Below are positions 25,168 to 38,675 of a stretch of DNA of 64,000 nt, piece after piece. The notes under the pieces are model-generated. The model made no database searches and was not told where the DNA came from. It saw only the letters and a list, made by a program, of their open reading frames with translations. Position 1 is the first letter of the stretch, and each line of letters opens with the position of its first letter. Both the position numbers and the translations under genes were made by a program. This DNA is from Polytrichum commune. Lineage: Eukaryota; Streptophyta; Polytrichopsida; Polytrichales; Polytrichaceae. Location: contig OX485805.1 in assembly GCA_950295325.1 (NCBI GenBank), positions 30,245,501 to 30,309,500 on the forward strand. Reading direction: 5' to 3'.

Positions 25168-25528
25168 GGGCCACTTCACACACGAGCCAAGAGCCGTGAC
25201 CATGAAATTGTGAGGGCCCACAAAGAAAGTGTCCAAAGGCCGTCCGAAAGACACCTCCAAAATCATGTAGTGTGGTCATGGACCCTCAAGTGTAGTGTGA
25301 AGTCATATGTGACGGGGACCTCAACCAAATGCTATTTCAATGAATTTCAATCCATGCAGGTCCTCACACATGATAAAAACATAAAAAAATAAAAATCAAT
25401 CAACGGTTGTGAGTGTGTTGGAGTGCCATGGTCTCCCAATTTTGTGTTAGGCCTACCTCCAAGAGGTGGTTTTTGAAAGTAGTCGAAGTGACCATGAAGC
25501 ATGATCCATTCGATGCCATGTAGGAATC
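25168..25528 (+). repeat. PIF/Harbinger-like MITE family A, copy 1, left part
   Basis: Starts GGGCCACTTCACACACGAG and follows the copy at 38174 through TCTCCCA.TTTTGTGTTAGGC to GATGCCATGTAGGAATC. It then stops at the inserted Mutator-like element; the remainder resumes at 36799. Copies at 38174-38675 and 42727-43224 are uninterrupted here. Confidence 0.9.
25519..25528 (+). repeat. Left target-site duplication of the MULE
   Basis: TGTAGGAATC, repeated exactly at 36799-36808. In the family A copy at 42727-43224 (read on the minus strand) this ten-mer occurs once in an uninterrupted context, so the duplication was made by the insertion. Confidence 0.9.
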
Positions 25529-25579
25529 GAGGGAAGCTATCTTATGAGCGATGAGCAGTGAGCAGTGAGCGGTGAGCAG
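25529..25579 (+). repeat. MULE left terminal inverted repeat with five heptamers
   Basis: The core GCTATCTTATGAGC is shared exactly with the right end. Heptamers TGAGCGA, TGAGCAG, TGAGCAG, TGAGCGG and TGAGCAG run from 25545 to 25579, followed by TAAC. Regular short repeats inside a TIR are candidate transposase binding sites. Confidence 0.85.
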
Positions 25580-26004
25580 TAACACATGAGCAATGAATCC
25601 AAATTTAGTAAAGACACACGGGTTTAGGGTTTACAACCAAATTTTTGACAAATTAATTGCATATTTTCAATTGTAAATTGCCAATATTTTAAATGAAGCA
25701 CAAGTGAAAGGGCCCTATTTCCATGGATCATTTAGAACACTTTCAATCCATTGCTGATTTTTATTATAATAATTCAAACCAATACTTGTCATTTATTGAC
25801 ATCCTTATACATGTAGCTACAACTAGCACTTGTACACCTACTCACATTCTACAACACCAGCAAATTCAAGTAGGTGCATAACCTCATTATACATATATGT
25901 CGGTGCCATAATTGTGAGCCACTCAAACTGCTCACGGGTTGAATAAAGGCCCAGAATCTACAAAAGAAAGAAAATTAGATATTAGAAATAATGAATATAT
26001 AGGT

Positions 26005-26212
26005 AGCTACTAGGTTTTGAGACATCCGCCTGTGGATGCGAGTTGCGTAAGAGACTGGTATTAGGTCTGGATCAACCCGGGTTCGAATCCGGTTGGTTAC
26101 ATTGACTGATGCTATCCCAAATTGAGCTAGTGATAAAGCATGAATAATCTATAGGCGGATACCAAGAAGACGTTACTACGCGGATGTGCGTAGAATCTTC
26201 TTAATTATTTTT
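26005..26212 (+). repeat. tRNA-derived SINE-like insert
   Basis: Contains GGGTTCGAATCCGGTTGG, an almost perfect RNA polymerase III B box, about 45 bp after GCGAGTTGCGTAAGAGACTGG, a plausible A-box region. It ends in a T-rich tail near 26200-26220. It cannot fold as a complete tRNA. Limits are approximate; no clear target duplication was found. Confidence 0.6.
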
Positions 26213-27715
26213 TATTTTTAGAAACGTGTTATTATTTATCCGTGTGAATCAATCAAGTCACACATGGTTGGGTCGCAGTCTAAATAAAAATGAAGTTACT
26301 GAATCATTTGAAATACTTTCAATCCACTGCTAATTTTTATTATAATAATCCAAACCAAAACATGTCATTTATTGACATTCAAATATATGTTGCTTAATAG
26401 AGCACTTACAATACTACTCACATTCTACAATACCAGCAAGTTCAAGTAGTCGCATGACCTCATTATAGGTATATGTAGGTGCATGAATGAACTTGTCACT
26501 CTCGTAATCCATCTTGCACAAAAATCTAAACACATAATAAAGATGTTTACAATACACCCATTTTCCTTTTTTTCCCAATGCATGAGAGGACATTTTTGTG
26601 AAATTTGGACATGTGCAATGCGGGATATCGCCAATTGTGACATGGTAGGTGATATCCTGCTTGGAGACAATGTTGCTTATCACTCCAAAGCCCGGATATG
26701 GAATGGCAGTGACCCCAACCACATAGTAACCTTCCATGAGTTCGGCGTTCTCCTATTTGTTTTTGTGATCCACCAGAGGTGCTGTTGGATTACGACGCAC
26801 TGTCTTCCCAAATTTGAATGTAGGGTGGGCGTCTGGGTTTGGTGGCATAGAAAAATGCAAGCGAGGGATGGGAAGAGTTGCAATTGTTGAAAGCCTACGA
26901 CGAGGAGACAATGCCTCCCTCTGCTGTAGTTGAAATCCAGCATCTTCAAGTGCCAAAACCTCCTCTCTCGATAGATTGGTACCTATCTTCACTGGCCACG
27001 TGTTGGGTACTATAGGCCAATCCAACACATATTTCTTCTTACTGCCACTCACACAACGTTTGATGTCGTCAGGACAAAACCAAAATTCATATTCCACATT
27101 GTTGGGAGAGCAAAATTCCTTCCTGAGCCCTTTGTATGTTGGAGCATGTGTGCCATGTTTCCCAGTCCCGACTTTCGCATTGCACATAGTCCCTGTTATG
27201 GCTTGCAGTGCCCAACAACGTTTGGCTGAGTTGGGTGGCAATCTTGCAATGTGCCACTTATAAGCAAGACAATCAGTCTCTAACACGGATGTAATATGAA
27301 CCACACCATGAATTGCAGAACTCAACGATTCCTCTATGCGTTGACGAGTTGCTCGAGTGTTGGGACGAGGAATGGAATAGTTCACTTTGTCGGGTCGATG
27401 AGAGTCACAATCAGCATCCGGTAGTAGGTTGAGTTTGCGTTTGGTGGAACCAAAGAGTTCTAACCCTTCCAATGCACAATCTCTAGTGTTGACGTCTTCT
27501 GCCCCTGGGTAAGACTTCATGGCATCAGCCAACATTTTTGGATCTCCACACCTGGCAGCTGCTTTGAGTTTCAAGGAGGCCGAATCAGGACCTTTACCAT
27601 CAGACCCCCCTTTCAACCATGTCCGGTAATTTGCAATTTGTATGAAGGCACGGATCATGTCGTCCACTGTAACTTCATATAAACAAGTCATCTTATTGCC
27701 GGACTGTTGGAGCCA

Positions 27716-28053
27716 TTTGTTGTGTACAGTCTCTACAAGGTTGCATGTTGGCATTTTTGCACGCTCTTTTATTGTCATATCCTATGAACAACACAGAAAT
27801 ACAAGGATAAGACAAACATAAGATAGATTATATATCTAGGTTTGGGTCGTTCGACCCAAAATGGCTGCCACGTTTGGGTCGTTCGACCCAAACTGCATAC
27901 AAGGTTTGGGTCGAACGACCCAAATTGCTTGTTGTTTGTTGTGTACAGTCTCTGCAAGGTTACATGTTGGCATTCCCACACGCTCTTCTATTGTCATATC
28001 CTATGAACAACACAGAAAGACAAAGATAAGAAAAACATAAGATATATTACATT
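27716..28053 (-). repeat. Duplicated exon edge and intron end around a palindrome array
   Basis: 27716-27834 recurs at 27935-28053 (shared TTTGTTGTGTACAGTCTCT, ATTGTCATATCCTATGAACA). Each copy holds the acceptor and first codons of the second transposase exon, so two possible acceptors exist. The palindrome array at 27841-27924 sits between the copies. Confidence 0.85.
27841..27924. repeat. Palindrome P2 array in the transposase intron (three copies, 32-bp steps)
   Basis: TTTGGGTCGTTCGACCCAAA at 27841 and 27873, and its reverse complement at 27905. Steps are exactly 32 bp. The motif is a 9-bp inverted repeat around a 2-bp centre. It recurs only at 32343-32517 in this window. Confidence 0.9.
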
Positions 28054-30737
28054 GAGTAATGAAGTTTGATATGTACTTACAAGTAGCATATGGCCACCCC
28101 ATTGTCTGTAACGAAAGTGCCAAAATCCCAACCACTCTGAAAGGCCAAGGATGCCTTCTTTGGAGGCAGCTCCAGATGACAACTACCAAAAACGAATCAC
28201 ATGGTACTTGGTCTCAACGTCGTCCATTGTTTTCGCGTCTTTGTAATCCTTGCATATTTGTTTGTGTTGAAATTGTAAGGATGGTTTGATATACTTTTGG
28301 GTCACCTTATCTAAGCTTGCGGACCAATGGAAAAGACATGTACACTCACGTGCAACCATGGGTAGACTTGGATCACCATCCCCGTAAATCGCCCTCACCG
28401 CATTCCAATTAGCTTGAGCACTATCAGCCATAAACCCTTTGAAGTTTACGTTTGGTACACCATTTTCTGCCATGACAGCATTCAAATTTTCCCAAAAGAA
28501 AATTTGTGTTGCACCATCTTCAGATTGCATGTCACAACACGTAATAGTCAACACTTTACAGTATCGACTGTCGTACACATGGCAAGCCATGGTCGTCCAG
28601 TCTTTCAAACGTTTGACATGGTCAAACATAATCCATGAATTCTCCATATCCCAACCGACTTGCATCCTCTTCACAAGCTCCACACCACTACCTGGAAGGT
28701 CTACAGACATCTTGAAAACAAACACTTTGTCCTTTGACTGCCCTGGGAACCGACTACCATGGACGAATTTGAAAGCAGAGTGGTCTTTGAGCGCCATAAT
28801 ACTATCCATAGTTCCCATTCTACTACGCAAAAAACGCTTTGATCCAGATACAAAGTTACGACAATTTGAAGACGCAAGAGTGCTGAATTTGTCAATGACG
28901 ACCTCTAGGGATGAACCAACCAAGTGATGGCCTTCGACATTTGCGGGAGATTTGAAAAGGTAATCAGCCAAGAATTGTTTGCTCGCCGCCATAACTATGG
29001 CTGAATTTTTTGCTGTGGGTGTTTTCAATACTTCATTTGCAACGCATTGGTATGCCATGTCCAATGATTCACGGCATGTGTCATTGGCCACAAGGTGATC
29101 ATGTACACCAAGATGAATGCAAACCCTGGACATTCCAACGGATGTGGAGTGGATGTATATGATTCAAGCATTACACAAAGCAATGCACACAGGTGTGGAA
29201 CGACATACCTTACACTCGACAGTGGACTTAGTAGGGGGAACAACACCCACAGCAAATGGGATAGGAGTTGAACCGGCCCATTCAGTGTTGTTCCGGAGGC
29301 TCCCATTGCGATTCATGTAATCACAGTAGTCATTATGACATTGAAGATGACCAGCACAAGTAGAGTGCCGAAAAGACAGTCCAAAGTCATTTTGGATATT
29401 CGTGGTTTTGATGGTGCACCAAGGGTGACCGTCGCACATCTTGTCCATGCCGTCCATTGAGCGACCATACGTACTTGGAGCTTTGAGTGTCACAGGAGGC
29501 AAGAGAAACAAAACATCACCATTAAAAGAAGATGGTAAGTACTTGACTTCACGAACATCTATACTGTCAAAATCAATGGATGCAAGATCGGACTTTGATT
29601 TTTTTCTTGACTTTGTCAGCTTCAAGGCATCAACCATAGTCAACCATGTAGATGAAGGTGAAGGGTATAGTGGAGGACGTTGAGAAGGTGAGATTTGGGG
29701 AACCACCTTCTTGTACATAAGACTGCAAGGGGATTTGGCTACATGTATAGGACGTTGGGAAAGAGTAGAATGAACACTTCTAAATGGAAATGGCGATGTG
29801 TTTGAAAGATCAACAGATGTACAAATGTCATCTTCTGAATCTGATAACACAAACACACTATCGTCAAGGGGTTCCACCTTAACAAGTGCGATAGAGGGAA
29901 TTTAAACTGTGGATGTACCGGATTCGTTTGTCAAAATGACAGTTGAAGCTTGCATCTGAGGTCAGAAAGTCCTATCACCCTAAATGAACCAGGTCCTAAG
30001 ATCCACATAAAACCAACATCAGTTCTATTTTTTGGAACCAAAATCGTTTCATACACCTCTCCATCTGCAGAGTACATCTCATGCTCTAAATACATGGTTC
30101 CTATCTGGAGATTGAATCTCAAACTAAGTAAATCCTTTGAAACACTCACATGACCATCATCTTGGAGTGGCAAGATGAAGGGAACAAAAGATCCATGAGC
30201 TCTAATGGTAGCCATAGAAAATCAAAAGAACATATGAACAACACATCACAAAAATATGGGGTGAATGTTGTTTTTGTATAGAGTTGTGTGAGGAAATGAA
30301 TGGAAATGAAAACGTGTGATACAATAATGGATGGAGATGAAAGCGTATGATACATAGCATCTAATAATACAGAAGTGGACATAATACAATAATAGTCAGA
30401 GAATATTTACGAGCAAGATATACACAAAATAACGTCAAATACTAAAAGTATTGGTAGAAATTTAAAATATATATGTGTGAACTGACATAGATGTAGAAAG
30501 AATTAAAATTGGTTGGAAAAATAAATTATTGATCATTATGAATAGAACAAAGTAGGTGTCAGAAAATTTTGGCGGATATAACAAAAATAAACACATAATG
30601 ACAAACGCGTCAAAATATCTCGTTCATTGAACGCCAATTACAACATGTGATCGTAATATAAGCCGGATTTTGTGAGATAGATACATTGGAAGAATAAATG
30701 ATAGTACCTGATAGAAAACATATCATAGACATCAAAG

Positions 30738-31020
30738 ATGGTAGACGATGTAGAGAGAACACCCGTGAGGCCGAAAAGAAGACATATGAAAGCTTTGTAT
30801 TTCATTTCCGAGAAAAAGAGGTTCAGACTGAGTGTGGGAAAGAAGAATGCAAATAAGGAAGGGAAAAGAAACTTGTTGAGTACGGTAGAAGAAACTGTGA
30901 AGACACTGAATTTTGATGCGATGGAGGATGATGAAGGTGCACAGAGCAAAGAAGATGTAGACGATCGTATATCAGAGTCCGAATTGAAGACGGGTTCAAA
31001 AAAGACAACAAACAAAAAGG
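30738..31020 (+). CDS. Small basic/acidic ORF with a splice donor, inside the MULE
   Basis: ATG at 30738 (MVDDVERTPVRPKRRHMKAL), open to AACAAAAAG|GTAAGT at 31021, a consensus donor. The peptide has a nuclear-localisation-like RPKRRHMK, Lys-rich middle and an acidic tail (MEDDEG, KEDVDDR). The acceptor at 32794 (TTTTAG|GACCAATCAATG) would join in phase to the start of the second gene, making the palindrome minisatellite intronic. It could equally be a separate gene or an upstream exon made obsolete by a nearer promoter. The family is not recognised. Confidence 0.4.
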
Positions 31021-31080
31021 TAAGTCAGTTCAATGTTCACATAATTTGATAGTGCATAAGTTGTAAGTTAGGACGGAGAA

Positions 31081-31645
31081 CCTTGTACGTTCACTCACAT
31101 GTCATGTAGTAGCAATTTATAGAGGTTATAAATTGGAGAGGAGAAACCCTATACGTTAATGCACATGGTATATAACAGAAATTTAGGAAGACTAGAAGTT
31201 AGGAGGAGCACGCACAGGGTTTATAAGAGCAACTTAGGAGGCGAGAGGTTGGGAGATAAAACCCTGTCCGTTAACGCACAGGATTTATAAGAGCAACTTA
31301 GAAGGCCAAAAGTTGGGAGGAAAAACCCTGTGCATTAACGAACTGGATTTGTAAGAGCAACTTAAGAGGCAAAAAGTTGGGAGGAGAAACCTTGTGCGTT
31401 CACGCACATGGTTTGTAAGAGCAACTTAGGAAGGCCAAAATTGGGAGGAGAAACCCTGTGCATTAACGCACAGGGTTTGTAAGCGCAACTTAGGAAGGCT
31501 AAAGTTGGGATGTAAAACCCTGTGCGTTAACGCACATGGTTTGTAAGAGCAACTTAGGAAGGCCAAAGTTGGGATGTAAAACCCTGTGCGTTAACGCACA
31601 TGGTTTGTAAGAGCAACTTAGGAAGGCCAAAAGTTGGGAGGTAAA
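31081..31645. repeat. 64-bp minisatellite built on palindrome P1 (nine units)
   Basis: Palindrome starts at 31081, 31147, about 31205 (truncated), 31262, 31326, 31390, 31454, 31518 and 31582; the last six are exactly 64 bp apart. Core CCTGTGCGTTAACGCACAGG is a perfect palindrome with a GTTAAC centre; single units vary at one or two positions. The spacer is GGTTTGTAAGAGCAACTTAG followed by GAAGGCCAAAAGTTGGGAGG. It lies between the two divergent genes of the MULE. Confidence 0.95.
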
Positions 31646-32036
31646 ACGACTAGGAGAGCCTAAAAGTAAAATAAATATCTATTGTATGAATTTAAATCGA
31701 TGTTCAAAGCGTAGGAGCAAAAAAATTATTCAAAACGGGGTTAGAATGCAAGAAATGAGAAATTTGTCTACTCAAGTATTCATGCAATACGTTATAGGAG
31801 CTAGAAAATGACACAAAATAGCATAATTTTTTTTTGCCCCGAAACCCAAAATTTACGAGGTGGCCCAAAACAAGGAAATAGATAGAAGAATGAGAAAAGA
31901 AAATGATTTCAAACCAAAACAAAATATCAGAAGAATTTGTAGCTACGGAGATTTAGATAATATAGCATTTTTTTATTTTTTTTTGGACCCCATTAGCATT
32001 TTTTCCAGATTTTATAAGTTTTGGCAAATCTACCAA

Positions 32037-32104
32037 GGGTCTACTTGCCTAGCTAGAGGCTTCACAAAGTTAGGCAAGTAGACCCTGTACGTTAACGCAC
32101 AGGG
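32037..32104. promoter_or_regulatory. Hairpin plus a single P1 palindrome upstream of the second MULE gene
   Basis: GGGTCTACTTGCCTA (32037) pairs with TAGGCAAGTAGACCC, the right arm ending at 32085 (one unpaired base next to the loop). Overlapping it, a P1 copy CCCTGTACGTTAACGCACAG runs to 32104. Another isolated P1 copy is at 32560-32581. The placement just before a TATA box suggests a regulatory role, by inference. Confidence 0.6.
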
Positions 32105-32179
32105 TCTACGCTGGCAACTTTCCAGCGGCTATGCGGGGCCACGAAGAGCCACACTACATATGGCTGCAGGGACGAGTAG

Positions 32180-32187
32180 TATAAATT
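32180..32187 (+). promoter_or_regulatory. TATA box candidate for the second MULE gene
   Basis: TATAAATT, followed about 30-40 bp later by a pyrimidine-rich TTTTTTTTCTCTCATC. A leader exon ending at 32307 (ACAAG|GTAATT) would splice to the acceptor at 32794. The P2 array then lies in the leader intron. Confidence 0.5.
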
Positions 32188-32342
32188 GCCACCCCCCCCA
32201 AAGCATTCAGTTTTTTTTCTCTCATCTGTCGGATCTGAGCTTGTCGCTGCAAGCTCTCTCATCTACAGGTGCAGTACAAGGTTTGTTTGCACTTTCGTAA
32301 TGACAAGGTAATTGCGCATAATTAGGCGTAAATTGCGGACAG

Positions 32343-32517
32343 TTTGGGTCGTTCGACCCAAACTGTGTGCCTAGTTTGGGTAGACCGATGTTCACAATTT
32401 GGATCGAGCGACCCAAACCACGCGCAAAAAGTTTGGGTCGTTCGATTCAAACTGGCTGTAGGCGGTTTGGGTCGCTCGATCGAAACCGCGTGGACAGTTT
32501 GGGTCGTTCGACCCAAA
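32343..32517. repeat. Palindrome P2 array, second location (six copies)
   Basis: Copies start at 32343, 32375 (decayed), 32398, 32432, 32466 and 32498. Those at 32343 and 32498 are perfect TTTGGGTCGTTCGACCCAAA; others differ by one to a few bases, often symmetrically decayed by C-to-T or G-to-A changes. Steps are 32, 23, 34, 34 and 32 bp. The array is in the probable leader intron of the second MULE gene. Confidence 0.9.
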
Positions 32518-32803
32518 CCTCGCACCCAACTTTGGTAGACCTGTAGTTGGACACACAGACCCTGTGCGTTAACGCACATGGTCTGCCCTTGTAGTTTGGG
32601 GTGAGCGGCCACCCTAATCGTACAATATTTAAAGGTGCAAATGACAGTGTCTAGAATAATTTTTGTCATTTTTTCCTGTGTTCGTGGTATTCTGTTGTTA
32701 TTGTTGTTGCTATTGCTATTGTTTTTGTGATGTTATTGCTAATGTGTTGCTACTGGTTTTGAAATATTTATGAAACTTATTTCATTTGTTTTAGGACCAA
32801 TCA

Positions 32804-35800
32804 ATGGATTTGGAGAGAACGACTCTTATTTCTACTGATGATGATTTCACAATGCATTCAACTCAAGATCGTCCATCTCAACAAGTTCATCATCATCAGG
32901 ACATATTGTCAAATCTTCATAATAAGAAAAAGAGAAAATAAATGAATCCCTCAATGATTTTGAGTCGGATGAAGATAATGATGCTGACAATAAAACTTAT
33001 CAAGAGAAAGTGTGAAAGCTTACGAACAAACAAAAGGTCAATTCCACTTCCACAATTTTTTCAATCCGTGCTGGACCTAATGCTCGCTTGCGTGTACCCT
33101 TATGTCGCATGGTTCCTATGCCGATTGTGCGTTCTACTTTGAAGGGTGACATTACTAAATTCGAGGCTGATTTTTTCAATGGTTATCGTGATGGTGACCA
33201 TGTGTTTTATATATCGGCCACCGATTCTAAGAGAAACTTTCAATTCGTAGATGATGAGGTTCGCACATCTTGGAGCCCAAATTGGGCTCAAGCCAATGCC
33301 CTGTTTGAATCTCAATTGGATACAGATTTGTCAGTGACGTCATACAAGAACAAAATGTTTTTTATATGAGATGGAAGTCACAATTTTTTTGCTTGGAGAA
33401 ATTATATTGACCGCGTATATACCGAAAATTATGAACGTCATGTCTTTGTAGATTCTATCATTTTGGCGCCCGAGCCTGACGACATTCCAAGTTTGTTCAC
33501 TGCTATACATGACATCAACAAGTAATGTTCTTACCTATTTTCTTACACTTATTTCTAGTTATATTTTGTTTTCCAAATTATATCATGATGAATCTAATCA
33601 ATTTAATGTTTTTTTCAGGTCAACCGAAAATTCTCACGTATCCACCAATTTGGTGCATACTTTATATCGGATGCAAAGTATTGGCACCATGCCTTTGATT
33701 TCCTTCAGAAAGCAACTGGATCCAAAGAGTTATAAACGATGTGAGGAGAAGTCCGTCGAAACTTGGTATTCTTTTACACGACCAAATTTTTTGGATTACA
33801 TGTACAGTGTAAGTTCTTCTACCATTGTTAATATGTGCCTTATGTTTATTCATCTTCATTTTACATTATATCTATATATACTTATAAATATTGATTTTTG
33901 TTTGATTTTTCAGCAAGAACTTGCTGAGGCTAGCGATATTACTCTCAACCAGTACAATGAAACTCATCCTCTTGAACGGACATGAGACGGAGTTTCAAAA
34001 ACAATGTCCGCAGCTGTTAACAAAAAATGTGCAATGTTATCTTCTAGTTTTACGAAACAACTAGCGATTGCCGACATCAACCTTACCTCTGCTTTCCTTG
34101 AAGAAGTTAAGCGCCATTGGGGTTCATTTTCGGTGCCTGAAATGCTACAAGAGAAACTTCATCGTGTTGCTGTCAGTAATGTGGATGCAGAAGTCAAAGT
34201 TGGATGCTCAAGCTTTGGAATGACAATAGATTTGACAAAGATGCATTGCATTTCTCGAAATCGCCCCTCTCTGATTCTGCACTTGATGATTGGTTATCAA
34301 AGTCTACATATTAGGCACAGTTGGAAAAAAAGGCTATCGAAGAGCTTCAAAGTATTCTTTCATCTCCTCTTTAGTTGCCTATAGATGTGCCTACTCTCTC
34401 CGAGTATATCCAAACCTGGAAGTTTGCGGCTTTCAATTCAATATTCTATCGTGAATTCCAAACCAAAGTTAAAAAACACAACGGTTGGGATGAGCAACCT
34501 AATATTGATCTTGCTATGAAACGTGTATTATACAGGTACAACCTAATCTTATTATTTTTTTGATTTTTTTTATTCCATTTGTCAAATTGTCATGGAATAT
34601 TTGACTTACAATATTTTTGTGTGTAGGTATTTTCGATATGTTTTGATTCTACATAAATGCGTTATAGGGGAACCTCGTTTTTTCCCAAATTGGCGTGACA
34701 CTGGTGTAGGAGATTCATGCATGTTCACTACTGAGATTTGTTTGGATTGGTCGCTCCCACACTATGAGGATTGTGGTTGGTATCTTGATTGTCCTAAGGA
34801 TCATGTCCGTCAAGTGAGAAAACAATCCGTCAAATAAATGATGCTAAAAATGTGGATCCTCGTGATACTGCAATTTTGCAAGCACAAATTGTGCAGCTTA
34901 AACTTAGAGAGCCAGAACCAAAAGAGACAAAATGTCGTAAGAGGAAACATGTTCCTGAAACCAAAATACAAGGTCAATCGGAAATTTCACAACATGAAGA
35001 ATTGCTTGTTCTTTCCAATGATTTGGATAAGAATCCACTTGGAGGCGAAAATTCAAAGTTTGGGTGCGATGTATTGGAATTTCATTACTCCAGCACCTAT
35101 GACGCTATTCATCGTGCGCCAACGGATATTTTGATAAAAGAGTTATTCATACTGAAGAACTTTCTCACGCTCTCGTTTGCTCGATCTACTACTGTCAAGA
35201 ACAAGTCTGAAGGGGTGGATGTTGGTCCTCCTGAGTGGATCCAATGGCGGGAATTTATTGAAAACGTAAGTATTATTGTTTTGGTATTTTCTCTAATGTT
35301 CTTACTTTCATTTGGGTTTATTTTGTGTGTTATATTGTGATATGTTGTGGTATTTCAGTTCAATGACAATCGTGAATTTCATGTCATGGGAAGTCCGACT
35401 CCCTTTGCCGTTGACTTGGTTTTTCTCCAATTTCCCGACGGTCTTGACTTCAACCTCTCCAATAGACCTGCTGAAATTCCTCTTTGGAATAAATATGACA
35501 AAAACTGGATGGTTGCAATAATGTCCTTGTGCAAGTCCATCTTGTCTGTTGATGGCGTCCTCATAGTATTTTCTGCTATCGATATGCAAACCAAGAAGGT
35601 TTTGAATTCAACCTTACACAACCGCAACATGAAAGTTCTTAGGACTTTTATTTGCCTCAATTCGTACATGGTGTTCAAGGATCCGGAGTCTCCAACCTAC
35701 ACCGTAAGTGTAACACATCACAATTGTTTCTATTTAATTATTTTGGTGTTATTTGTATTGTATATAGTTTTAACACAATTTACATTTTTTTGTAGACTCC

Positions 35801-36615
35801 GGCATTTATGGCTCATGTCTTGGTAAGGGATTTTACTACCACAAAATCCACGAGACAACTAAACTCCATTTTTTTTGGCATTGGATTGAAAAGCAAAAAC
35901 TTGCTTTTCAATTTTGTGGATGAAAAAAACATGCTTCTTCAAAAATCAGGAAGACCTTGGAGGGGGCCATATAAAAAATCGCCGCGTTTTTTTTCAAGAT
36001 CTTATTGAATTGTTTACACCATCGAATGGACGCGTTGTTGATTCGACATGTTCCACTGGAGCTTCTATCCTAGCAACACGCGCATGTGGCAGACATCTTC
36101 TTGCATTTGAGGGTGATAATGACATGTTTGAGCACATATTGAAACCGCTTTTGGAAAATATTTTGAAAGAGGGGTCATCTAAGGAGAATATACAAGATCT
36201 CACAAAAGAAGATGATGACCTCTCGGATGAGGAGATGCTTGAATTTGAGTGTGAGTAAGTTTTAATACAATAAATTTTTATTCAATTCATTCGTTTCATT
36301 CAATTCATTGGTTCATTTTTATTTCTTCACATTATTTACATGTTTCATCGATTTAATTTCAGGAATACGATTGGAAAGAGGACATGTCTCCCGTTTTGGG
36401 CACATAGACAATTCCTATGAAGTCCAAGCCGTAGCCCGCGTCTCCCATCATATGCCGAGAATGTTGCAATTGCAATGTTGAATCTCGAAGATTCGGATCC
36501 AAATGAAGAATCTTGCTATAGTTCCAAAATCAATTCGCAATACAAAGGTGCTCGAATATATATAGATGACGAGGCAAAAGATAGTTTCATGTCTAGTGCT
36601 ACTACTGATGAATAA
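32804..36615 (+). pseudogene. MULE passenger gene with permuted methyltransferase-like domain (broken)
   Basis: Exon chain on the plus strand with good junctions at 33521|33620, 33810|33914, 34535|34627, 35265|35360, 35703|35796 and about 36255|36363. The N-terminus is acidic (LNDFESDEDNDADN). The middle shows no recognised domain. The last third reads like a beta-class amino-methyltransferase in permuted order: an AVDLVFLQFPDG stretch in the place of the catalytic DPPY motif, then CKSILSVDGVLIVFS, then LIELFTPSNGRVVDSTCSTG and GRHLLAFEGDND resembling the SAM-binding DxFxGxG motif and following GR...E.D. The catalytic motif is not canonical (no PPY), so activity is doubtful even before decay. 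In-frame stops: TGA at 33014-33016, 33367-33369 and 33983-33985; frameshifts near 32935, 34205 and 35965. Function is unknown. Confidence 0.55.
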
Positions 36616-36761
36616 ATTTTTGGACTTCATGTTGTTTATCCTTCTCAACCCTCTTATTACTAAACCCTAAAATCATCATTTTTAAGGCCACAATTCCACG
36701 GTTATAGGATATTGGTGGCCCTATTACCAAAATTTTCATCTTCCTCACTGCTCATAAGTTA

Positions 36762-36798
36762 CCGCTCATCGCTCACCGCTCATAAGATAGCACTCCCC
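36762..36798 (-). repeat. MULE right terminal inverted repeat with three heptamers
   Basis: Read inward from 36798: GGGGAGTGCTATCTTATGAG, then heptamers TGAGCGG, TGAGCGA, TGAGCGG and TAAC, matching the left end in order but with two fewer heptamers. Confidence 0.85.
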
Positions 36799-36961
36799 TG
36801 TAGGAATCCATGTAGACTTTACATCCATCTTGCATTCACATACTCCATTGGTCCCTTGAGCGTAGCGTGAAGTGAACTTGGACCAACTCCGCATTTTCCA
36901 CCAATGACAATGTTTGAAGTGTAATGGTCACGGGCTCTCAATCCCGTGTGTGAAGTGACCA
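36799..36961 (+). repeat. MITE family A, copy 1, right part (starts with the target duplication)
   Basis: Begins with the second TGTAGGAATC (36799-36808) and continues CATGTAGACTTTACATCC as in the uninterrupted copies. It ends near GTGTGTGAAGTGACC, a decayed form of the family's GTGAAGTGGCCC end. Confidence 0.85.
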
Positions 36962-38173: not shown

Positions 38174-38675
38174 GGGCCACTTCACACACGAGCCGAGAGC
38201 CGTGACCATGAAATTGTGAGGGCCCACAAAGAAAGTGTCCAAAGGCCGTCCCAACACACCTCCAAAATCATGCAGTGTGGTCATGACCCTCAAGTGTAGT
38301 GTGAAGTCATATGTGCTTGGGCCCTCAACCAAATACTATTTCAATGAGTTTCTATTCATGCATGTCTTTACACATGGTAAAAAATAGAATAAACCAACAA
38401 TTGTGAGTGTTCGGAGTGCCATGGTCTCCCAGTTTTGTGTTAGGCCTACCTCCAAGAGGTGGTTTTTGAAAATAGTCCAAGTGACCATGAAACATGACCC
38501 ATTTGATGCCATGTAGAAATTCATGTAGACTTTTACATCCATCTTGCATTCACATACTCTGTTGGTCCCTCAATTGTAGTGTGAAGCGAACTTGGACTGG
38601 CTCCGCCTTTCCCACCAATGAGAGTGCTTGAAGTGTAATGGTCATGGGCTCTCAATCTCATGTGTGAAGTGGCCC
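38174..38675 (+). mobile_element. PIF/Harbinger-like MITE family A, copy 2 (complete)
   Basis: 502 bp from GGGCCACTTCACACACGAG to GTGTGAAGTGGCCC, flanked by TCA at 38171-38173 and 38676-38678. Inverted ends of about 40 bp. A 3-bp duplication and GGGCC ends fit PIF/Harbinger. It is one of the uninterrupted references for the MULE insertion site. Confidence 0.85.

Follow-up and report, generated by a model that had tools for sequence, protein, structure and literature searches.

Architecture of the element and its passenger gene

The window analysed here is a 64,000-nucleotide stretch of the Polytrichum commune genome (G000:C3:30245501-30309500, within a 408-Mb assembly). It contains a Mutator-like DNA transposon of 11,270 bp with inverted ends (25529–36798), in which two genes lie head to head: a transposase gene on the minus strand (26414–30221), broken in the window, and a divergent passenger gene on the plus strand (30738–36615) that encodes a methyltransferase-like domain. 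The boundaries of the element were chosen by comparison with two full copies (L001 with L002, and L003 with L004) and from an inverted repeat (I12). Two long matches between the full copies show 98.6–99% identity. Each full copy aligns to the window, starting at 25527 or 25528 and ending at 36783, with interruptions at the arrays described below. The inverted ends extend over 45 nt at 80% identity in the window and over 61–62 nt at 87% in other copies. A 10-bp direct repeat, TGTAGGAATC, flanks the element at 25519–25528 on the left and at 36799–36808 on the right and represents the target-site duplication. An earlier note on this DNA had placed the passenger gene inside a DNA transposon, a view that the duplication and the inverted ends around the 11,270-bp element bear out. 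Mutator-like target duplications measure 8–11 bp. The transposase of copy L001 is contained in two open reading frames (ORFs) of 742 and 455 residues. A SWIM-like finger in the transposase scores an E value of 0.076, short of the cut-off. PF10551 (MULE transposase) gave no match at E ≤ 1 in the two L001 ORFs, and a genome search with it returned none at C1:63.98 Mb among the best 150 of 271 candidates. Together, the duplication, the inverted ends and the SWIM-like finger suggest that the element belongs to the Mutator superfamily; as PF10551 was not found, the label "Mutator-like" is used. The genomic repeat that flanks the element (25281–25527 and 38285–38674) runs on without an insert at 38413–38674, which is the empty form of the target (repeats D7 and D12).

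Exon 1 of the passenger gene (30738–31019, 94 codons) extends from an ATG to a phase-0 GT donor, and the window and both full copies agree in this. Intron 1 (31020–32794) holds palindrome arrays and ends with the acceptor TTTTAG at 32789–32794. Exon 2 (32795–33521) encodes an N-terminal domain that reads PLCR..VRP..DGNHR..AW in open copies and is broken in the window. It is followed by exons 3 (33619–33808), 4 (33914–34535) and 5 (34627–35265). Exon 6 (35359–35703) encodes the first half of the methyltransferase-like domain, with QFPDG at 35428–35442 in the place of DPPY. The half with the S-adenosylmethionine (SAM) site lies in exon 7 (35796–36254), which is frameshifted in the window, and the gene ends with exon 8 (36363–36615). 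The four strings on which the earlier note was based all occur on the plus strand: AVDLVFLQFPDG at 35407–35442, VDGVLIVFS at 35548–35574, VVDSTCSTGAS at 36034–36066 and GRHLLAFEGD at 36088–36117. The interval that the note had assigned to the gene proved too short at its 5′ end. The coding exon at 30738–31019 joins in phase to 32795, so that the 1.8-kb intron with its palindrome arrays, an intron predicted from the sequence, is part of the passenger gene. Splicing of the window copy at six GT-AG introns gives a reading of 3,226 nt interrupted by 47 in-frame stops, and the frame of the SAM-site motif differs from that at the start of its own exon 7. The window passenger gene is thus a broken pseudo-copy.

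Copies of the gene and selection

The Mutator-like transposons that carry this accessory gene form a large group. A search with 35359–35700 gave matches 35–100% identical among the best 150 of 737 candidates, and one with 35890–36258 gave matches 45–100% identical among the best 150 of 831. Copies were assigned to the window family or to sister clades, which keep the domain at 23–36% identity to the window family. Splicing of 13 copies, the window included, according to the exon map of the window left four stop-free over 3,231 nt (1,076 codons), namely C1_63M, L009, L010 and L011. One splice dinucleotide is changed in each of L009 and L010, leaving two open copies without visible defect.

The ratio of nonsynonymous to synonymous divergence (dN/dS) was calculated from sequences selected as stop-free. 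In clade C it is 0.10 (mean dN 0.063, mean dS 0.626; 66 pairs from 12 exons of the N-terminal domain), and among the open window-family copies it is 0.14–0.15 in four divergent pairs with dS of 0.19–0.20. The passenger genes are under purifying selection by this sequence measure, with dN/dS of approximately 0.10–0.15 outside the very close pairs. A gene that had been captured or was decaying, and was of no use to the transposon, would agree with the broken window copy and with the stops in many of the copies listed. Such a gene is very improbable in view of the purifying selection, the four open copies of 13 and the retention of the domain in sister clades at 23–36% identity.

The methyltransferase-like domain

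The ORFs of the window, taken as they stand, gave no methyltransferase match in Pfam and only weak unrelated ones, the best at E 0.0075. Because Pfam was silent on these ORFs, other copies were needed, and the homology emerges with the open or sister copies. For the open protein of the window family, PF01555 (N6_N4_Mtase) is the best Pfam match, below the cut-off (E 0.02 with the full-length protein, 1.8e-4 with the isolated domain), and the only other match at E ≤ 1 is a weak one to NTR2. Of eight domain sequences, six match PF01555 at E ≤ 1; the proteins of L015 (1.5e-8) and L016 (1.1e-7) lie above the cut-off. The eight domain sequences, representing seven clades (L015 and L016 belong to the same one), were combined into a profile of 241 positions. 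Its search against the Protein Data Bank (PDB) returned 20 sequences at E ≤ 1. The top match, DpnA (E 3.4e-10), is chiefly to the SAM half, and that to CcrM (E 3.1e-7) covers profile positions 16–233. Ten of the top 12 matches are named DNA amino-methyltransferases and two are labelled only "Methyltransferase"; EcoP15I brings the DNA enzymes to thirteen, and arginine methyltransferases account for the remaining seven. Alignment of the domain with phage amino-methyltransferases using hhalign resulted in an E value of 2.2e-7, a probability of 93.5 and a score of 54.9; the highest score among 30 controls with shuffled columns was 22.7. A tblastn search of phages with L015 gave 19 records, and the 15 listed are weak amino-methyltransferase matches with E values of 0.07–0.9. 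Within the domain the catalytic loop precedes the SAM motif, which is the permuted order of the beta class.

The earlier note had read the last exons as a permuted beta-class amino-methyltransferase and had proposed a profile search with PF01555. The PDB matches, the PF01555 matches of L015 and L016 and the hhalign score above all shuffles uphold that reading, although the window family by itself stays below the Pfam cut-off. To judge from these sequence comparisons, the C-terminal domain is almost certainly homologous to the permuted beta-class amino-methyltransferases.

The catalytic site

The earlier note had also remarked on the missing PPY and had suggested that the aromatic position of DPPY be read in intact copies. 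Open copies contain no DPPY, and the aromatic position is occupied by D or E in 29 of the 31 copies read, by N in one and by Y in one. In the window family the residue is D in all 13 copies (12 QFPD and one QFLD). Eight of the 11 clade B loci are readable and have D in six cases, N in one and Y in one. Clade C (L017, L018, L025 and L027) has D in 4/4 and clade D (L021–L023) has E in 3/3, with L020 unreadable, and a single E was read in each of clades E (L019), F (L024) and G (L029). The proline preceding the aromatic position is retained in 29 of the 31 copies, such that the motif is now D/E/Q-x-P-D/E in nearly all of them. In SAM motif I (DxFxGxG) the aspartate and the last glycine are kept in 8/8 sequences, and the first glycine is replaced by S or A in 5/8. 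The motif-II acid is E in four of the five sequences that reach that far and K in L016.

In a rotifer N6_N4 enzyme, activity is reported to be abolished by the change of SPPY to APPA (PMC8885841). Since the aromatic residue has been lost in nearly all copies and this change kills the rotifer enzyme, most passenger proteins have likely lost amino-methylation. An alternative is that the protein is an active amino-methyltransferase with a non-canonical D-x-P-D/E motif, which would place a mark such as N4-methylcytosine (4mC) on its own palindromes, as a self-label or as a shield against silencing by 5-methylcytosine. The SAM half is largely kept, as the counts for the aspartate, the last glycine and the motif-II glutamate indicate, and the N6_N4 enzyme of bacterial origin in rotifers is reported to place 4mC at transposons and tandem repeats (PMC8885841). 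L016 moreover reads DIPYG. However, DIPYG was rejected as a sign of activity: it is not the consensus of clade B, in which the eight readable copies comprise six DIPDG, one EIPNG and one DIPYG. The aromatic residue is gone in 30 of the 31 copies read, the first motif-I glycine is often replaced, and alanine at the S and Y of the motif is reported to inactivate the rotifer protein (PMC8885841), all of which make an active enzyme improbable.

The N-terminal domain

The N-terminal domain includes a DGNHR..AW helix that resembles ParB proteins. Pfam gave no ParB match in seven members, a PDB search with the domain profile gave seven weak matches with no ParB among them, and PF02195 matched across the genome on contigs C10, C12 and C23 only, at no passenger locus. 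Alignment with ParB by hhalign reached a probability of 28 over 30 columns with seven sequences, and with 24 sequences a score of 23.1 versus a maximum of 23.8 in 30 shuffles. A mismatched pair, the N-terminal domain and the phage methyltransferases, scored 21.5 versus a shuffle maximum of 18.5, and scores near 20 therefore carry no meaning. The assignment to ParB was set aside as unproven, its score not exceeding the controls and the similarity being confined to the DGNHR-like helix. A search of viral contigs with the N-domain pattern gave 13 stretches, none of which was confirmed, and single-sequence structure prediction of the window N-terminal domain gave a pLDDT of 32, too low to use. Contigs C10, C12 and C23, which are likely bacterial, have ParB_N or N6_N4_Mtase in long frames, with both in a single 501-residue frame of C12. 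One contig end of the assembly carries a CCCTAAA repeat, in keeping with a plant or alga.

A second abundant repeat family with dense TTTGGGTCGNNCGACCCAAA and TTTGGGTCG sites was encountered at L044 (G000:C1:616000-625999), L045 (C1:1180300-1190299) and L081–L084, within the best 150 of 957 candidates. Its protein reads FWLIDGQHSVEASKK ... GDCIFNVFGGSKP ... NIYSYVED, and also DGQH ... VDVWLWI ... GDCIFNVFGGS. Neither domain was matched by Pfam in eight of its ORFs. The ParB-like part scores 16.5 versus a shuffle maximum of 16.3 and the methyltransferase-like part 22.8 versus 21.0. By eye the family seems to share the two-domain plan, ParB-like and methyltransferase-like, but the profiles do not establish homology, and it is retained as a lead.

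Palindromes in and around the element

Intron 1 of the window copy contains 64-nt tandem repeats (31145–31656), the units of which carry the palindrome CCTGTGCG-TTAA-CGCACAGG or decayed forms of it; two further sites start at 32084 and 32561. A second kind of palindrome, TTTGGGTCGNNCGACCCAAA, forms a set in the same intron (32341–32520) and an array between the transposase ORFs (27839–27928), which is like the array between the two transposase ORFs of L001. All 12 dyads of both kinds in the window fall inside the element. The 48 kb outside it (1–24000 and 40000–64000) contain no dyads with two CG steps at any spacer of 0 to 9.

The DNA upstream of the gene was read for the window family and for seven more clades, B to H; L089, the ninth locus, consists entirely of N and was excluded. 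Dyads counted without a rule on their sequence form largest groups of like sequence with 7 members in the window family, 6 in B, 5 in C, 6 in D (AT-rich low complexity), 14 in E, 9 in F, 4 in G and 9 in H, compared with shuffle maxima of 1, 3, 2, 3, 3, 2, 2 and 3, respectively. In the controls, a 10-kb stretch of the window gave 2 versus a shuffle maximum of 3, and the 7 versus 2 obtained for a transposase stretch is due to the intronic TTTGGGTCG array within it. The total number of dyads exceeds the shuffle maximum in the window family and in clades C, D, E, F and H. Counting only dyads with a CG-N4-CG core and at least 5 of the 6 flanking bases paired, the design N6-CG-N4-CG-N6 occurs before the gene 6 times in the window family, 7 in B (one unlike the rest), 4 in C, 13 in E, 8 in F and 4 in H; 200 dinucleotide shuffles per locus gave a mean of at most 0.06 and a maximum of 1. 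The half-sites are specific to the clade, the six being CCTGTG, TTTGTG, GGGTGC, GGTGGT, TTGTCT and GGGTTT. Six of the eight clades thus carry their own 20-bp palindromes of one design, as read from the sequences. Among other spacers, N2 occurs in the window family (3) and in D (3), D and E have isolated dyads, and B, C, F, G and H have none. TTTACGAACGNNCGTTCGTAAA palindromes approximately 73–94 nt apart were observed upstream of clade D (L020) at L048:4158–4504.

The arrays lie in intron 1 in the window family and, by eye, also in clades C and E. A stretch like exon 1 precedes the array in C by eye and weakly in E (E 0.08); none was recognised in the other clades examined. The earlier note had drawn a parallel with the anti-silencing protein of Arabidopsis VANDAL elements, VANC, which acts on repeated motifs. 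The motifs found here are indeed laid out as VANC targets, in arrays in the non-coding DNA of the element that differ by clade in six of the eight clades examined.

Co-location of palindromes and genes

The window motif CTGTGCGTTAACGCACA has 585 genome-wide occurrences on one strand and 594 on the other, and the reversed pattern has none. The first 100 sites listed (C1 below 9.41 Mb) form eight single sites or clusters, seven of which lie 2.8–3.8 kb upstream of a window-family gene; the one at 461.6 kb has no listed gene. Conversely, all seven window-family genes listed on this part of C1 have CTGTGCGTTAACGCACA upstream. The clade E motif GGTGGTCGNNNNCGACCACC has 53 sites genome-wide, and its reversed pattern has none. 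The 50 sites on the list group into seven clusters, and six of these lie 2.9–4.1 kb upstream of a clade E gene (66–100% identity), the exception being at C5:29.74 Mb. More distant clade E matches, among the best 150 of 1,333 candidates, were not seen within 10 kb of a listed GGTGGTCGNNNNCGACCACC cluster.

It is unlikely, though less so than the active enzyme considered above, that the arrays serve a promoter, RNA processing or a host factor while the methyltransferase-like protein does something else. Neighbouring sequences travel together in any case, clades D and G have no array in the region read, and the second palindrome, TTTGGGTCGNNCGACCCAAA, is also present in another repeat. However, a single design with clade-specific half-sites in six clades and the co-location with genes of the matching clade exceed what neighbourhood would lead one to expect, and a host factor would presumably need no new half-site in each clade.

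One pair of elements was compared from end to end. Element B (L047, L032 and L016) and the window-family element share, by blastn at E ≤ 1e-3, the transposase at 83–91% identity and, at 84%, a stretch of 184 bp close to the end that lies past the passenger gene; in the array and passenger stretch no DNA similarity was detected by the same search. The two transposases are 76–91% identical with dS of 0.36–0.55, and the methyltransferase domains share 26% identity, with approximately 36% in the best exon. On this sequence comparison, gene and array differ together in that one pair, whereas the transposase and the ends are common to both. Between the transposase and the passenger gene of element B, a kinase-like stretch is visible by eye (L032:1845–2761, HCDLSFTNIIFHF..IGDWGSA), perhaps an extra captured fragment.

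This exchange has a bearing on another possibility, namely that the protein is an accessory factor of transposition, which would use the internal arrays as binding sites for pairing copies or regulating cutting and would have no part in anti-silencing. Many elements keep the gene, it was swapped as a cassette in the pair compared, and arrays are also found between the transposase ORFs. Nonetheless, the arrays are internal and away from the ends, and the cassettes differ although the transposases are 76–91% identical. A role of this kind appears about as improbable as an active enzyme.

Discussion

The passenger protein is tentatively regarded as a probably dead amino-methyltransferase fold reused as a dimeric reader of palindromes, likely for anti-silencing. 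That it reads the palindromes of its own element is the better supported part and appears reasonably probable; that anti-silencing is its purpose is a proposal by analogy that is held with some reserve. Beta-class amino-methyltransferases are often dimers, and the two-fold symmetry of the palindromes fits a dimeric reader. A protein without amino-methylation would work as a dimer that reads both half-sites together with both CG steps, and the dense arrays would draw it to copies of its own family. Once bound, it would prevent or remove CG methylation and silent chromatin over the non-coding DNA, which would let the shared divergent promoter fire. The clades would diverge through joint change of reader and palindrome. 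A sensitivity of binding to methylation, conferred by the CG steps, is conjectural. A bolder extension, which we consider doubtful, is a self-recognition code in which the protein of each clade reads its own N6-CG-N4-CG-N6 palindrome, the CG steps act as a methylation switch and the cassette is traded as a portable anti-silencing module. The protein would be bound when the sites are unmethylated, so that occupancy and hypomethylation would sustain each other.

Several observations weigh against a dedicated palindrome reader without enzymatic activity. L016 retains the tyrosine in DIPYG. The stop-free sequences from which dN/dS was obtained were selected as such, which somewhat depresses the ratios, and two very close open pairs give 0.26 and 0.57 from few changes. 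Total dyads in B (16) and G (12) are within the shuffle maxima (17 for each). The CG-N4-CG dyads number 0 in clade D and 1 in clade G, whose dyads are without CG, and in clade C a dyad lacking CG, GGCCTCAG-CCT-CAGAGGCC, is equally frequent (5). The CG-N4-CG rule was moreover drawn from the same loci and the shuffle test is not independent of it; chance does not account for the arrays, as the shuffles demonstrate, but loci beyond these would be required to generalise the rule. Two of the eight clade E genes at ≥ 66% identity have no listed GGTGGTCGNNNNCGACCACC cluster. TTTGGGTCGNNCGACCCAAA, with 9,731 sites (reversed pattern 0), also fills another abundant repeat, and for that reason it was rejected as a private target of the passenger gene. 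Lastly, the half-sites of the window family and of B share TGTGCG though the proteins are only 26–36% alike, and clade C (36%) has another half-site. Palindrome distance and protein distance do not rank together.

A gene carried by a Mutator-like element besides its transposase, motif arrays within an intron of that gene and differences between clades amount to a layout like that of VANC. By this analogy the passenger protein may work like VANC of the Arabidopsis VANDAL elements, but it does not appear to be VANC. Both are non-transposase genes of Mutator-like transposons associated with family-specific arrays of short motifs in non-coding DNA, introns included (PMC5735166; PMC10398659). The VANC motifs are reported to be short (YAGTATTAY, AGTTGTCC) and in one orientation, in contrast to the 20-bp palindromes with a CG-N4-CG core described here (PMC5735166). 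Motif binding and hypomethylation have been demonstrated for VANC, whereas for the passenger protein they are proposed (PMC5735166; PMC10398659). The available text on VANC names no methyltransferase fold (PMC5735166), and the two proteins were set against each other by Pfam and by description.

DUF1985 is the domain associated with VANC. METTL14-type pseudo-methyltransferases likewise have a methyltransferase fold with a degenerate catalytic motif that is kept for binding. They share the degenerate motif with the passenger protein and differ in belonging to the MT-A70 family, in acting on RNA and in working with an active partner. The rotifer N4CMT resembles the passenger protein as a permuted PF01555 fold in a eukaryote that is tied to transposons and tandem repeats; it is described as host-encoded, carrying SPPY and a chromodomain, and its 4mC activity has been measured, whereas the passenger gene is multicopy and has neither SPPY nor DPPY (PMC8885841). 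In the red alga Asparagopsis taxiformis, 66 N6_N4_Mtase genes versus 4–6 in three other red algae are reported as gene duplication (PMC12115072). This is likewise a repeat-rich eukaryotic genome with many PF01555 genes, though the available text, with which the comparison was made by description, mentions no link to transposons, palindromes or an altered catalytic motif (PMC12115072). The ParB-methyltransferase fusion of phages, exemplified by the Wolbachia phage WO methylase (L035), has an N-terminal domain with a GHxR motif like DGNHR followed by a permuted PF01555 domain, also in a mobile element (PMC3089641). In contrast to the passenger protein, DPPY is invariant in six aligned phage proteins, and the ParB homology of the passenger protein does not rise above controls.

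A search of the literature by title and abstract opening returned no report of a methyltransferase gene in a Mutator-like element or of such palindromes. In the literature searched, VANC is the transposon-encoded anti-silencer that reads arrays of its own motif. If an unrelated fold with the layout of VANC does the same in the moss elements, the strategy would have arisen more than once, and a DNA-modifying fold would have been turned into a sequence reader. The palindromes of the clades, with their shared core, would then constitute protein–DNA pairs in which specificity shifts while the fold stays, and such pairs would make the coevolution of reader and target testable by binding assays.

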